Shown one piece after another: positions 8,465 to 12,207 of a DNA stretch of 44,286 nucleotides (its first letter is position 1; every line of letters begins with the position of its first letter). Source of the DNA: Microbacteriaceae bacterium (GTDB taxonomy: Bacteria; Actinomycetota; Actinomycetes; Actinomycetales; Microbacteriaceae); NCBI GenBank assembly GCA_025464815.1, contig JAODMW010000127.1:1-44286 (forward strand). The letters are read 5' to 3'. A program made the translations under genes and the position numbers. Below the pieces are notes generated by a model. That model saw only the letters and a program-made list of their open reading frames with translations. It searched no databases and had not been told where the DNA came from.

Positions 8465-8597
8465 GGTTGAGTAGGCCGCCCAGCGTTCTTGTGGGTTGAG
8501 TAGGCCGCCAGCGTTCTTGTGGGTTGAGTAGGCCGCCAGCGGCCGTATCGAAACCCGCCGGGCTACTCTGTCGATTTCGATACGCGCGCCATTCAAC
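8465..8597. repeat. REP/BIME-like repeat array 1
   Basis: GGTTGAGTAGGCCGCCCAGCG... at 8465, 8494 and 8522, the last ending ...GGCCGTATCGAAACCC; inverted partner GATTTCGATACGCGCGCCATTCAAC at 8573-8597. Confidence 0.85.
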
Positions 8598-9957
8598 GGG
8601 CATCCGAAATGAAGACGTTCTTGGTCTCGGTGAAGGCGGCAGCGGCATCCGGGCCGAGTTCGCGGCCGAGGCCGCTCTGCTTGAAGCCGCCGAACGGTGT
8701 CGAGTAGCGCACCGAGGAGTGGGAGTTCACCGAGAGGTTGCCGCTCTCGATGCCACGGGAGACACGGATGGCGCGGCCGACGTCGCGCGTCCAGATCGAG
8801 CCGCTCAGCCCGTAGTCACCCGCATTCGCGAGGGCGATGGCGTCGGCCTCGTCGTCGAAGGGCAGCACGGAGACGACGGGACCGAAGATTTCCTCTGTGA
8901 CGACGCGGTCACTCCGGGAGCCGGGAAGCAGTACCGTCGGCGGGAACCAGAAGCCCGGGCCATCCGGAGCACTGCCGCGAAAAGCGACCTGCGAGTCGTC
9001 GGGAACATAGGACCGCACCTTGGCGAGGTGTACCGCGGAGACGAGCGGCCCCATCTCGGTGGCTTCGAGACCGGGCGAACCGACCCGCACCCCCTTCACC
9101 GCCGGCTCGAGAAAATGCAGGAATTTGTCGAGAACACTGCGCTCGACGAGGATTCTGGAGCGCGCGCAGCAGTCTTGTCCTGCGTTTTCGAACACTGCGT
9201 AGGGAGCGGTCGCCGCGGCCTTCTCCAGGTCGGAGTCGGCGAACACGACGTTCGCGCTCTTCCCGCCGAGCTCGAGCGTCACGGCCTTCACCTGCGCGGC
9301 ACATCCCGCCATCACCTTCTTGCCGACGGCCGTCGAGCCGGTGAAGACGATCTTGCGCACATCCGGATGCGTGACGAAACGTTCGCCGACTACATCGCCT
9401 CGGCCGGGCAGCACCTGGAACAGCCCAGGCGGGAGCCCCGACTCGAGCGCGAGCTCGCCGAGCCGGATGGCGGTGAGCGGGGTCCACTCCGCCGGCTTGA
9501 GCAGCACGGCGTTGCCGGCGGCGAGCGCGGGAGCGAAACCCCAGCTCGCGATGGTCATCGGAAAGTTCCAAGGCACGATCACTCCGACGACACCCAACGG
9601 TTCGAGGAAGGTGACGTCGAGGCCTCCGGCGACAGGGATCTGCTTGCCGATCATCCGTTCTGGCGCGGCGGCGTAGTAGTCGAGCACGTCACGAACGTGC
9701 CCGGCCTCCCACCTGGCCTGGGTGATCGGATGCCCGGAGTTGGCCATCTCGAGCTGTGCGAGGTTCTCCAGGTCTCCGTCGACCGCGCGGGCGAATCGCC
9801 GCAAGCCCGCGGCGCGGTCGGCCGGAGCGAGTGCAGCCCACTTCCGCTGCGCCAGCAGGGCCCGCGTCACGGCGTAGTCCACCTGCTCGACGGTCGAATG
9901 TTCGACTTCCTGCAGCACGGTCTCGTCCGCCGGGTTCAACAGGGTGATACCGCTCAT
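8593..9957 (-). CDS. Aldehyde dehydrogenase (PuuC/BetB-like)
   Basis: PLGVVGVIVPWNFPM, VTLELGGKSANVVFADSDL, FENAGQDCCARSRI; ATG at 9957 overlaps the upstream stop (ATGA). Confidence 0.92.
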   Translation of the reverse strand: MSGITLLNPADETVLQEVEHSTVEQVDYAVTRALLAQRKWAALAPADRAAGLRRFARAVDGDLENLAQLEMANSGHPITQARWEAGHVRDVLDYYAAAPERMIGKQIPVAGGLDVTFLEPLGVVGVIVPWNFPMTIASWGFAPALAAGNAVLLKPAEWTPLTAIRLGELALESGLPPGLFQVLPGRGDVVGERFVTHPDVRKIVFTGSTAVGKKVMAGCAAQVKAVTLELGGKSANVVFADSDLEKAAATAPYAVFENAGQDCCARSRILVERSVLDKFLHFLEPAVKGVRVGSPGLEATEMGPLVSAVHLAKVRSYVPDDSQVAFRGSAPDGPGFWFPPTVLLPGSRSDRVVTEEIFGPVVSVLPFDDEADAIALANAGDYGLSGSIWTRDVGRAIRVSRGIESGNLSVNSHSSVRYSTPFGGFKQSGLGRELGPDAAAAFTETKNVFISDAR

Positions 9958-10703
9958 CTCATCGCCTTTCGCGCCGCATCCACGAGCCCCTGGAACAGCC
10001 GGAGGTCGTCCGGCGTCTGCTCGGGATGCCACTGCACGGCCACCCCGAACGGAACGCCCTGCAATTCCACCGCCTCGACGACGCCGTCGTCGCTGCGCGC
10101 GGTTACCCGAAGCCTCTCCGCCACGCGGTCGATGGCCTGGTGGTGGTAGACCTCCACCGAGAGCTCGTCGGTGCCGATCATGGTGCCCACTGCGCTGTCG
10201 GGTTCGGCCAGAACACCGACCATGCTGAATTCGCCGCCGCCGAGCTGGTACCTGTTTGAGCCGATGACCTCCGGCAGATGCTGGTGCAGCGTTCCGCCGA
10301 GGGTCACGTTGAGTATCTGGGCGCCGCGACAGATGCCGAGGAACGGCAGCTCCCTCTCGATCGCCGCGGTGAGCAGCGCACCCTCCCACGCGTCGCGGTC
10401 GGTGCGCGGTGCATCCGTGGTCTCATGCCGCTCCTGCCCGTAGAGTGCAGGGTCGACGTCTTTGCCGCCGGTGACGATAAGCCCGTCGAGACCGTCGAGC
10501 ACCCGGGCCGCGATTCCGGCGGAAACCGGCTGTGGCGGCAGCAGCACCGCTATGCCGCCCGCGCGGATCACGGCCTCGAAGTACAGCTTCGGCAGGAACG
10601 CCGCCGGCACGTCCCATACTCCGGTCTGCGCCTGTTCGAGATAGGTGGTCAGGCCGATGATGGGTGCAACCGTGGGTCGAGTAAGGCCGTCCACGGCCGC
10701 CAC
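9954..10703 (-). CDS. Gamma-glutamyl-gamma-aminobutyrate hydrolase-like class I glutamine amidotransferase (PuuD-like); start codon uncertain
   Basis: PIIGLTTYLEQAQTGVWDVPAAFLPKLYFEAVIRAGGIAVLLPPQ, GGKDVDPALYGQ, LPFLGICRGAQILNVTLGGTLHQHL, VQWHPEQT. In-frame GTGs at 10703 or 10694 lie inside a 33-bp repeat; the track start at 11039 runs antisense into the GS gene. Confidence 0.85.
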   Translation of the reverse strand: MAAVDGLTRPTVAPIIGLTTYLEQAQTGVWDVPAAFLPKLYFEAVIRAGGIAVLLPPQPVSAGIAARVLDGLDGLIVTGGKDVDPALYGQERHETTDAPRTDRDAWEGALLTAAIERELPFLGICRGAQILNVTLGGTLHQHLPEVIGSNRYQLGGGEFSMVGVLAEPDSAVGTMIGTDELSVEVYHHQAIDRVAERLRVTARSDDGVVEAVELQGVPFGVAVQWHPEQTPDDLRLFQGLVDAARKAMR

Positions 10704-10830
10704 CGCGGGTCGAGTAAGGCCGTCCACGGCCGCAACTGCGGGTCGAGTAAGGCCGTCCACGGCCTGTATCGAGGCCTCATCTATGCCGCGAGGAGGTCTC
10801 GATACAGGCCGTGAACGACCTACTCGACCC
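10674..10830. repeat. REP/BIME-like repeat array 2 (33-bp tandem plus inverted unit)
   Basis: GGGTCGAGTAAGGCCGTCCACGGCC at 10674, 10707 and 10740 (33-bp period); third copy extends CTGTATCGAGGCCTC; inverted copy GAGGTCTCGATACAGGCCGTGAACGACCTACTCGACCC at 10793-10830. Confidence 0.92.
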
Positions 10831-10839
10831 GCAGGCGTT

Positions 10840-12207
10840 TCAGAACCGCTCAAAACCGCGAACCCTCTCCCAGTCGGTGATCGCGGCATCGAAAGCCGCG
10901 ACCTCGATACGAGCGTTGTTGAGGTAATGCTCGACGACATCCGCGCCGAATGCCTCGCGGGCGATCTCGGACTGGCCGAACAGTCCGGCCGCTTCGCGGA
11001 GCGTCGACGGCACGCGAGGTGCATCGCTGTTGTAGGCATTGCCTTCCAGCATCGGCTCGAGCTCGAGCTCGTGCTCGATCCCGTAGAGGCCGCCGGCGAT
11101 GAGGGCCGCGACAGCCAGGTACTGATTCACGTCGCCGCCGGGCACTCGGTTCTCGACCCGCATGCCGAGACCATGGCCGACGACCCGCAGGCTGCAGGTG
11201 CGGTTGTCGAGTCCCCAGGCGACGGCGGTCGGCGCGAAGCTGCCGTCGACGTAACGCTTGTACGAGTTGATGTTGGGGGCGAAGAACAGGGTGAGTTCGC
11301 GCATCGTTTTGAGCTGGCCGGCGAGGAAGTGGCGGAACATCTTCGACATCCCGAGTTCGTCCGAAGAGTCGGCGAAGACCGCGCTGCCGTCCGTGCCGCG
11401 GAAGGAGATGTGGATATGGCACGAGTTGCCCTCGCGCTCGTTGTACTTCGCCATGAACGTCAGCGCCTTGCCGTGCTTGTCGGCGATCTCCTTCGCGCCG
11501 TTCTTGTAGATCGAGTGGTTGTCGCAGGTGGTGAGCGCGTCTTCGTAGCGGAACGCGATCTCCTGCTGGCCGAGGTTGCACTCGCCCTTGACGCCCTCGC
11601 AGTACATGCCGGCGCCCTCCATGCTGACGCGGATGTCGCGCAGCAGCGGTTCCATGCGCGTCGAGGCGAGCAGCGCGTAATCGATGTTGTAGTCGCTGGC
11701 CGGAGTCAATCCGACATATCCCCTGCTCCAGGCATCCCGATAGCTGTTGTCGAAGACGATGAACTCGAGCTCGGTGCCCACATAGGGCACGAGACCCTTC
11801 GCGGCGAGCCTGGCGATCTGTTTCTTGAGAATTTCGCGCGGAGCCGGGGGAACCGGGGTCTCGTCGAGCCAGGTGAGATCCGCCATGACGAGTGCAGTAC
11901 CGGGAAGCCATGGTAGGAGCCTCATCGTGGAGAGGTCGGGGATCATGGCCATGTCGCCGTAGCCCTTCTCCCACGACGAGATCCGGTAGCCGTCGACCGT
12001 GTTCATCTCGACGTCGACCGCGAGCAGGTAGTTGCAGCACTCGGCACCGTGCTGGCTGATCTCCTCCTTGAACAGGCGAGCGGATGCCCGCTTGCCGACC
12101 AGGCGACCCTGCATGTCGGTGAACGCGACGATGACAGTGTCGATCTCGCCGGCGTCGATGAGGGCATTGAGCTGGTCTGTGGTGAGCATTCCCGTGCGTA
12201 CGGTCAT
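10840..12207 (-). CDS. Glutamine synthetase-like gamma-glutamyl-amine ligase (GlnA3/GlnA4/PuuA type)
   Basis: GTELEFIVFDNSYRDAW, EGVKGECNLGQQEIAFRY, EGNSCHIHISFRGTDGSAVF, NINSYKRYVDGSFAPTAVAWGLDNRTCSLRV. Confidence 0.92.
   Translation of the reverse strand: MTVRTGMLTTDQLNALIDAGEIDTVIVAFTDMQGRLVGKRASARLFKEEISQHGAECCNYLLAVDVEMNTVDGYRISSWEKGYGDMAMIPDLSTMRLLPWLPGTALVMADLTWLDETPVPPAPREILKKQIARLAAKGLVPYVGTELEFIVFDNSYRDAWSRGYVGLTPASDYNIDYALLASTRMEPLLRDIRVSMEGAGMYCEGVKGECNLGQQEIAFRYEDALTTCDNHSIYKNGAKEIADKHGKALTFMAKYNEREGNSCHIHISFRGTDGSAVFADSSDELGMSKMFRHFLAGQLKTMRELTLFFAPNINSYKRYVDGSFAPTAVAWGLDNRTCSLRVVGHGLGMRVENRVPGGDVNQYLAVAALIAGGLYGIEHELELEPMLEGNAYNSDAPRVPSTLREAAGLFGQSEIAREAFGADVVEHYLNNARIEVAAFDAAITDWERVRGFERF

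Follow-up and report, generated by a model that had tools for sequence, protein, structure and literature searches.

The 33-bp tandem array ahead of the puuD core is built from one half of a palindromic, REP-like element with dispersed copies, duplicated in tandem, and the glnA-puuD spacer that contains it is very probably translated as a disordered tail of PuuD, an enzyme of nitrogen metabolism. The window (the whole stretch of 44,286 nucleotides of Microbacteriaceae DNA that was analyzed) was compared with related puuD loci, and the model drawn from this comparison is, as a whole, highly probable. Translation of puuD would begin within the last codons of glnA in the +1 frame, in the window most likely at TTG 10853-10851, and the overlap of the two genes would probably couple puuD translation to glnA. 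The spacer would be coding and would yield a variable, probably disordered N-terminal tail. An inverted pair of REP-like palindromes would have entered the spacer in the lineage of the window, and half of one palindrome would then have been duplicated tandemly in 33-bp steps, extending the tail to a length of about 62 residues. The features concerned are the following.

8593-9957, minus strand: aldehyde dehydrogenase gene (PF00171, sequence)
9954-10853, minus strand: puuD-like gene, Peptidase_C26, gamma-glutamyl hydrolase family (PF07722, E 6e-64)
10666-10764, minus strand: 33-bp tandem array, 3 copies (TRF, translation)
10668-10853, minus strand: N-terminal extension of about 62 residues, predicted to be translated as part of PuuD (open frame, AlphaFold, outside the Pfam domain)
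10741-10776, plus strand: complete REP-like palindrome GGTCGAGTAAGGCCGTCCACGGCCTGTATCGAGGCC (genome-wide pattern, inverted repeats)
10795-10829, minus strand: second complete REP-like palindrome, inverted to the first (pattern match at 10798-10829, minus strand; RNA fold)
10840-12207, minus strand: glnA-like gene, glutamine synthetase family, upstream partner of puuD (PF00120, E 1e-99)
10851-10853, minus strand: putative TTG start of puuD, within the glnA 3' end, +1 frame (start conserved in frame at 74 of 74 loci)
10863-10871, minus strand: Shine-Dalgarno-like stretch GGGAGAGGG, 9 nt before the TTG and encoded by glnA codons (sequence, shuffles)

The 33-bp array and its palindromic element

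The array received the top TRF score and was the strongest tandem repeat within the window (10666-10764, period 33, 3.0 copies, 93% matches, score 177), and GGGTCGAGTAAGGCCGTCCACGGCC started at 10674, 10707 and 10740, as the preliminary description had stated. The copy number is that assembled in a fragmented 3.03-Mb draft genome (294 contigs, 81% complete); since the copies differ mutually at several bases, the array cannot be explained simply as a single read piled up during assembly. Each unit consisted of a 24-bp half of the palindromic element and a 9-bp linker. Translation of the minus strand gave AVDGLTRPAV, AAVDGLTRPAV and AAVDGLTRPTV in a frame that was open into PuuD (...IQAVDGLTRPAV AAVDGLTRPAV AAVDGLTRPTV APIIGLTTYLEQ). 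The in-frame fusion reported earlier was thereby confirmed, together with the point that a change in the number of 33-bp copies would leave the reading frame intact; two of the three 11-residue repeats were also as described, while the first reads QAVDGLTRPAV and does not begin with AAV.

It had been overlooked that the third copy belongs to a complete palindrome (10741-10776), likely the source of the tandem half-copies, which faces an inverted partner at 10795-10829. The element reads GGTCGAGTA...GGCC...TATCGAGRCC, and a pattern for it gave 27 strict copies in the source draft genome, against 0 matches of a reversed-pattern control. With a stricter end, it was present in 33 of 117 Microbacteriaceae genomes with a maximum of 144 copies in one, the control again giving 0; all these copies were counted by sequence pattern only. 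As dispersed copies were found without control matches, the element is a dispersed REP-like family. Further inverted pairs were present in the source genome and across Microbacteriaceae genomes, and four copies elsewhere in the source genome were spaced 43 nt apart. As to the GTAG tag that marks one end in the GTAG superfamily, most copies read GGTCGAGTAG and the array of the window has GTAA. A second array from the same palindrome family, GGTTGAGTAGGCCGCCAGCGTTCTTGTG, was observed at 8465-8541, within untranslated DNA that separates the aldehyde dehydrogenase stop from the start of a short-chain dehydrogenase. Mobilization of the element as a RAYT-driven REP was considered and rejected, as the RAYT domain (Y1_Tnp, PF01797) was absent from 13 genomes of the genus, with control genomes positive; RAYT is missing for some REP classes (PMC3733652).

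Several of the 27 genomic copies fell in long open frames. The element is in frame in ferrochelatase (hemH, L031:1501-1590), where two copies make up an insert of about 55 residues that relatives lack, in a class I tRNA synthetase between the catalytic and anticodon-binding domains (L043:1501-1538), in an Lhr-like helicase (L038:744-773) and in the glycine cleavage P protein (gcvP, L052:1218-1249). According to Pfam and orthologue alignments, these four inserts lie within the aligned protein, where relatives have shorter or variable loops, and since they are internal, start-site misannotation is no explanation for them. The element was also observed at the 5' end of the open frames of GlmU-like (L042:1501-1528) and RbfA (L039:1501-1532) genes.

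The spacers of other puuD loci were occupied differently. A pair of the same element as in the window was found in L012 of genome G009, and a single degenerate copy in L109. A second palindromic family (GGCGCTGGCGTCGC...GCTCCAGCGC), forming two hairpins, with GAGA and GAAA loops in some cases, was found in the spacers of L058, L059, L061, L065, L070, L082, L084, L112 and L133. No Rfam match was obtained for this family; its 8 strict copies dispersed in G009 led to rejection of the idea that it is a puuD-specific RNA element. The closest relative of the window, L058 (87%), carries this second family instead, so the insert of the window is lineage-specific.

The palindrome pair might act mainly as an RNA hairpin between glnA and puuD, in attenuation or mRNA stability, with translation being incidental. 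The two palindromes form a long hairpin, the spacer RNA folds far better than shuffled sequences (z = -9.5), and REP roles in transcription termination and mRNA stabilization have been proposed for other bacteria (PMC3733652). However, most orthologues lacked the insert and the closest one had another, which argues against a conserved regulatory structure at this site, and no structured RNA family reached the gathering score in the Rfam analysis of seven loci; for the window only microRNA models appeared, with scores well short of the gathering level, as a long hairpin would lead one to expect. A mainly structural role was thus judged unlikely, and it would be compatible with a translated spacer.

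Start site of puuD

In GTDB genomes, 80 named puuD loci were found, and the analysis covered 74 distinct Microbacteriaceae loci in which puuD immediately follows an unambiguous glnA end, including the window and two loci of its genus. The preliminary description had noted correctly that no start codon stands at the core boundary, where GTT precedes GCA CCC ATC, and had suggested that the array may have replaced the native initiation region. This explanation was not supported, since repeat-free orthologues of the same genus also had no ATG, GTG or TTG just before the conserved P[VI]IGLTTYLEQ (PIIGLTTY). Repeat-free examples without a start beside the core were Galbitalea soli (L064, spacer of 4 nt) and L060 (7 nt). 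The V/I codon that follows the core proline was rejected as a start as well, because it varies (ATC, GTC, GTG, CTG, CTC, TTG).

Between the glnA stop and the puuD core lay 4 to 178 nt, yet this length was 1 mod 3 in 74 of 74 loci, which places puuD in the +1 frame of glnA at every one of them. No stop was present among 859 spacer codons in the puuD frame, while the other two frames contained 11 and 26. The conserved glnA C-terminus, DWERVRGFER, offers two start codons in the puuD frame: CGT before GGC creates a GTG 20 nt before the glnA end (GTG-20), and TTT before GAG creates a TTG 14 nt before it (TTG-14). At least one of them was present in all 74 loci (38 with TTG only, 24 with GTG only and 12 with both), compared to about 11.8 of 74 expected from the Phe and Arg codon usage of the loci themselves. 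At the start site, TTT was used for Phe in 50 of 74 loci and CGT for Arg in 36 of 74, against 108 of 1421 and 218 of 2434 codons, respectively, elsewhere in glnA and puuD. The Arg codon within the Shine-Dalgarno-like stretch was AGG or AGA in 27 of 74 loci, whereas in the background these make up about 5% of Arg codons, and anti-Shine-Dalgarno pairing exceeded that of synonymous shuffles on average across loci, with a moderate advantage.

The 74 loci are related and these raw counts overstate the significance, for which counts on a tree are the safer figure. On the PuuD-core tree, the start class switched at least 20 times and never to neither codon among the 74 loci, and the spacer length shifted at least 49 times, each time by a multiple of three. 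In Arthrobacter sp. U41 (Micrococcaceae), the NCBI annotation begins puuD at GTG-20, giving a 20-nt overlap with glnA; puuD in turn shares 4 nt with the aldehyde dehydrogenase gene, as in the window.

Eight of the 80 loci (L066, L107, L112, L113, L116, L132, L133 and L137) escaped the search pattern and were checked by eye. L066, L112 and L132 followed the rule of a glnA-internal start and a fixed frame. In L116 (Pseudolysinimonas), both start codons were lost, GTGA overlapping the stop provided an in-frame start, and the frame had changed. In L133 (Protaetiibacter mangrovi, 2410-2500), a palindromic insert supplied an ATG and a GGAGGT Shine-Dalgarno, and the usual frame was left despite retention of TTG-14. 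Loci that need the glnA-internal start thus hold the puuD frame, and those in which another start appeared (L116, L133) have given it up. The remaining L107, L113 and L137 were not downstream of glnA, and L113 and L137 are paralogues with an ordinary ATG. Two side observations were made on these loci. L133 is an apparent start-codon replacement of the kind imagined in the preliminary description, and in the spacer of L112 (2370-2500) the glnA 3' end is partly duplicated, with DWERVRNFERF occurring twice, which sets a second copy of the start region beside the puuD core.

A start of puuD at a GTG of the array, as proposed at first, was judged very unlikely in the light of these loci. The GTGs at 10694 and 10703 were found in frame and nearest to the core, as described, and others occur at 10727 and 10760; in addition, N-terminal REPs elsewhere have often been deemed extragenic, and it has been cautioned that most of them may be so, through misannotation (PMC3733652). 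However, array-free orthologues had no start at this place, no Shine-Dalgarno precedes the GTGs at 10694 and 10703 (as had been remarked), and with a start in the array the frame shared with the TTG would drift freely, as it did in L116 and L133. The comparison with orthologues lacking the array, which had been recommended, was performed, and the array was found downstream of the glnA-internal start that the repeat-free loci share; a start inside the array was rejected on this ground. With a start inside the glnA end at all 74 loci, including the window, the array would lie downstream of the initiation site, inside the coding sequence, and most likely does not hold the start codon. The upstream extension of the open frame into the 3' end of glnA, with its in-frame TTG, had escaped the earlier reading.

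A GlnA-PuuD fusion formed by programmed +1 frameshifting near the glnA stop would also explain the conserved frame, as puuD is always +1 to glnA with no intervening stop. But a frameshift does not predict that CGT|G or TTT|G is kept at every locus; no conserved slippery site was present, and the last sense codon and the stop varied (TGA 59, TAG 10, TAA 5). The plain GTG start in the annotation of the relative and the separate ATG of paralogues away from glnA also spoke against a fusion, which was considered extremely improbable.

The PuuD enzyme and its N-terminal tail

From the putative TTG start, PuuD comprises 299 aa, with the PF07722 domain spanning residues 64-278 and solved structural relatives in 3fij and 6vtv (E. 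coli PuuD). C175, H276 and E278 were invariant among 36 PuuD sequences, and this conservation of catalytic residues suggests that the enzyme works. The upstream glnA-like gene is a probable gamma-glutamylpolyamine synthetase, and downstream the start of the aldehyde dehydrogenase overlaps the puuD stop by ATGA. That puuD is decaying in the source genome and the insert is neutral debris, an idea suggested by the draft state of the genome and the unusual N-terminus, can practically be dismissed, given an intact core with an invariant catalytic motif (GICRGAQ, WHPE), 87% identity to the sister sequence and no stops.

The residues ahead of the Peptidase_C26 domain, MSGSETPAGRVGRSRPVSRPPRGIDEASIQAVDGLTRPAVAAVDGLTRPAVAAVDGLTRPTV, were modeled by AlphaFold with pLDDT of 42-54 and no secondary structure, while most of the core exceeded 90, consistent with a disordered tail. 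The tail may be selectively neutral or may have a role. TTG is a weak start codon, and shorter forms of PuuD may arise from internal starts, such as the GTGs in the array. Bounded by a fixed start upstream and by the enzyme core downstream, the spacer would retain only insertions that are in frame and free of stops. The periods of all six spacer arrays with a TRF score of at least 50 were divisible by 3 (33, 15, 18, 15, 18 and 15), in contrast to the period of 28/29 of the untranslated array at 8465-8541. By extension, the start locked in glnA might make a formerly untranslated spacer a repeated source of new protein tails from mobile palindromes and tandem repeats, and some tails, for example the 11-residue repeats, might have gained a role or might vary in copy number between strains; this is a tentative proposal with a small chance of being right.

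Relation to known systems

N-terminal repeats are usually dismissed as start-site misannotation. With the start fixed upstream by comparative genetics, an N-terminal mobile palindrome can here be assigned to the coding sequence with high confidence, which provides a tractable actinobacterial counterpart of the Rickettsia palindromic elements. The approximately 75 spacers form a natural series for studying the origin of new protein segments, and a simple rule is obtained for correct annotation of the puuD start throughout Microbacteriaceae.

GTAG and CGTC REPs have been reported within the coding regions of several bacteria, in a paper that also brings up the Rickettsia palindromic elements (PMC3733652). 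Like these, the element of the window is a short palindrome that occurs dispersed and often as an inverted dimer, and its in-frame insertions sit at tolerant positions of conserved protein genes and add about 10-80 residues; the likeness to the Rickettsia elements is one in way of working only. It differs in its host, Microbacteriaceae, in being, as far as compared, an element of its own, and in that the N-terminal case is judged to be translated because comparative evidence fixes the start upstream. With REPs and REPINs it shares dispersed palindromes of 20-40 bp and frequent inverted pairs, but its copies in puuD and four other genes lie within coding sequence and not extragenically, and the 13 genomes of the genus have no RAYT gene.

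The Peptidase_C26 core, catalytic Cys and His-Pro-Glu motif of the window PuuD are those of E. coli PuuD (6vtv) and the gamma-glutamyl hydrolases 3fij and 7d4r, whereas the start inside upstream glnA and the variable N-terminal tail set it apart. A literature search combining overlapping genes, translational coupling and N-terminal extension gave no report. Translationally coupled overlapping genes resemble the present case in having a start within the 3' end of the upstream gene, with the next gene overlapping by ATGA; at the glnA-puuD junction, by contrast, the start switches between two positions that lie 6 nt from each other and share one frame, and the region after the glnA stop appears to have become a variable coding spacer.
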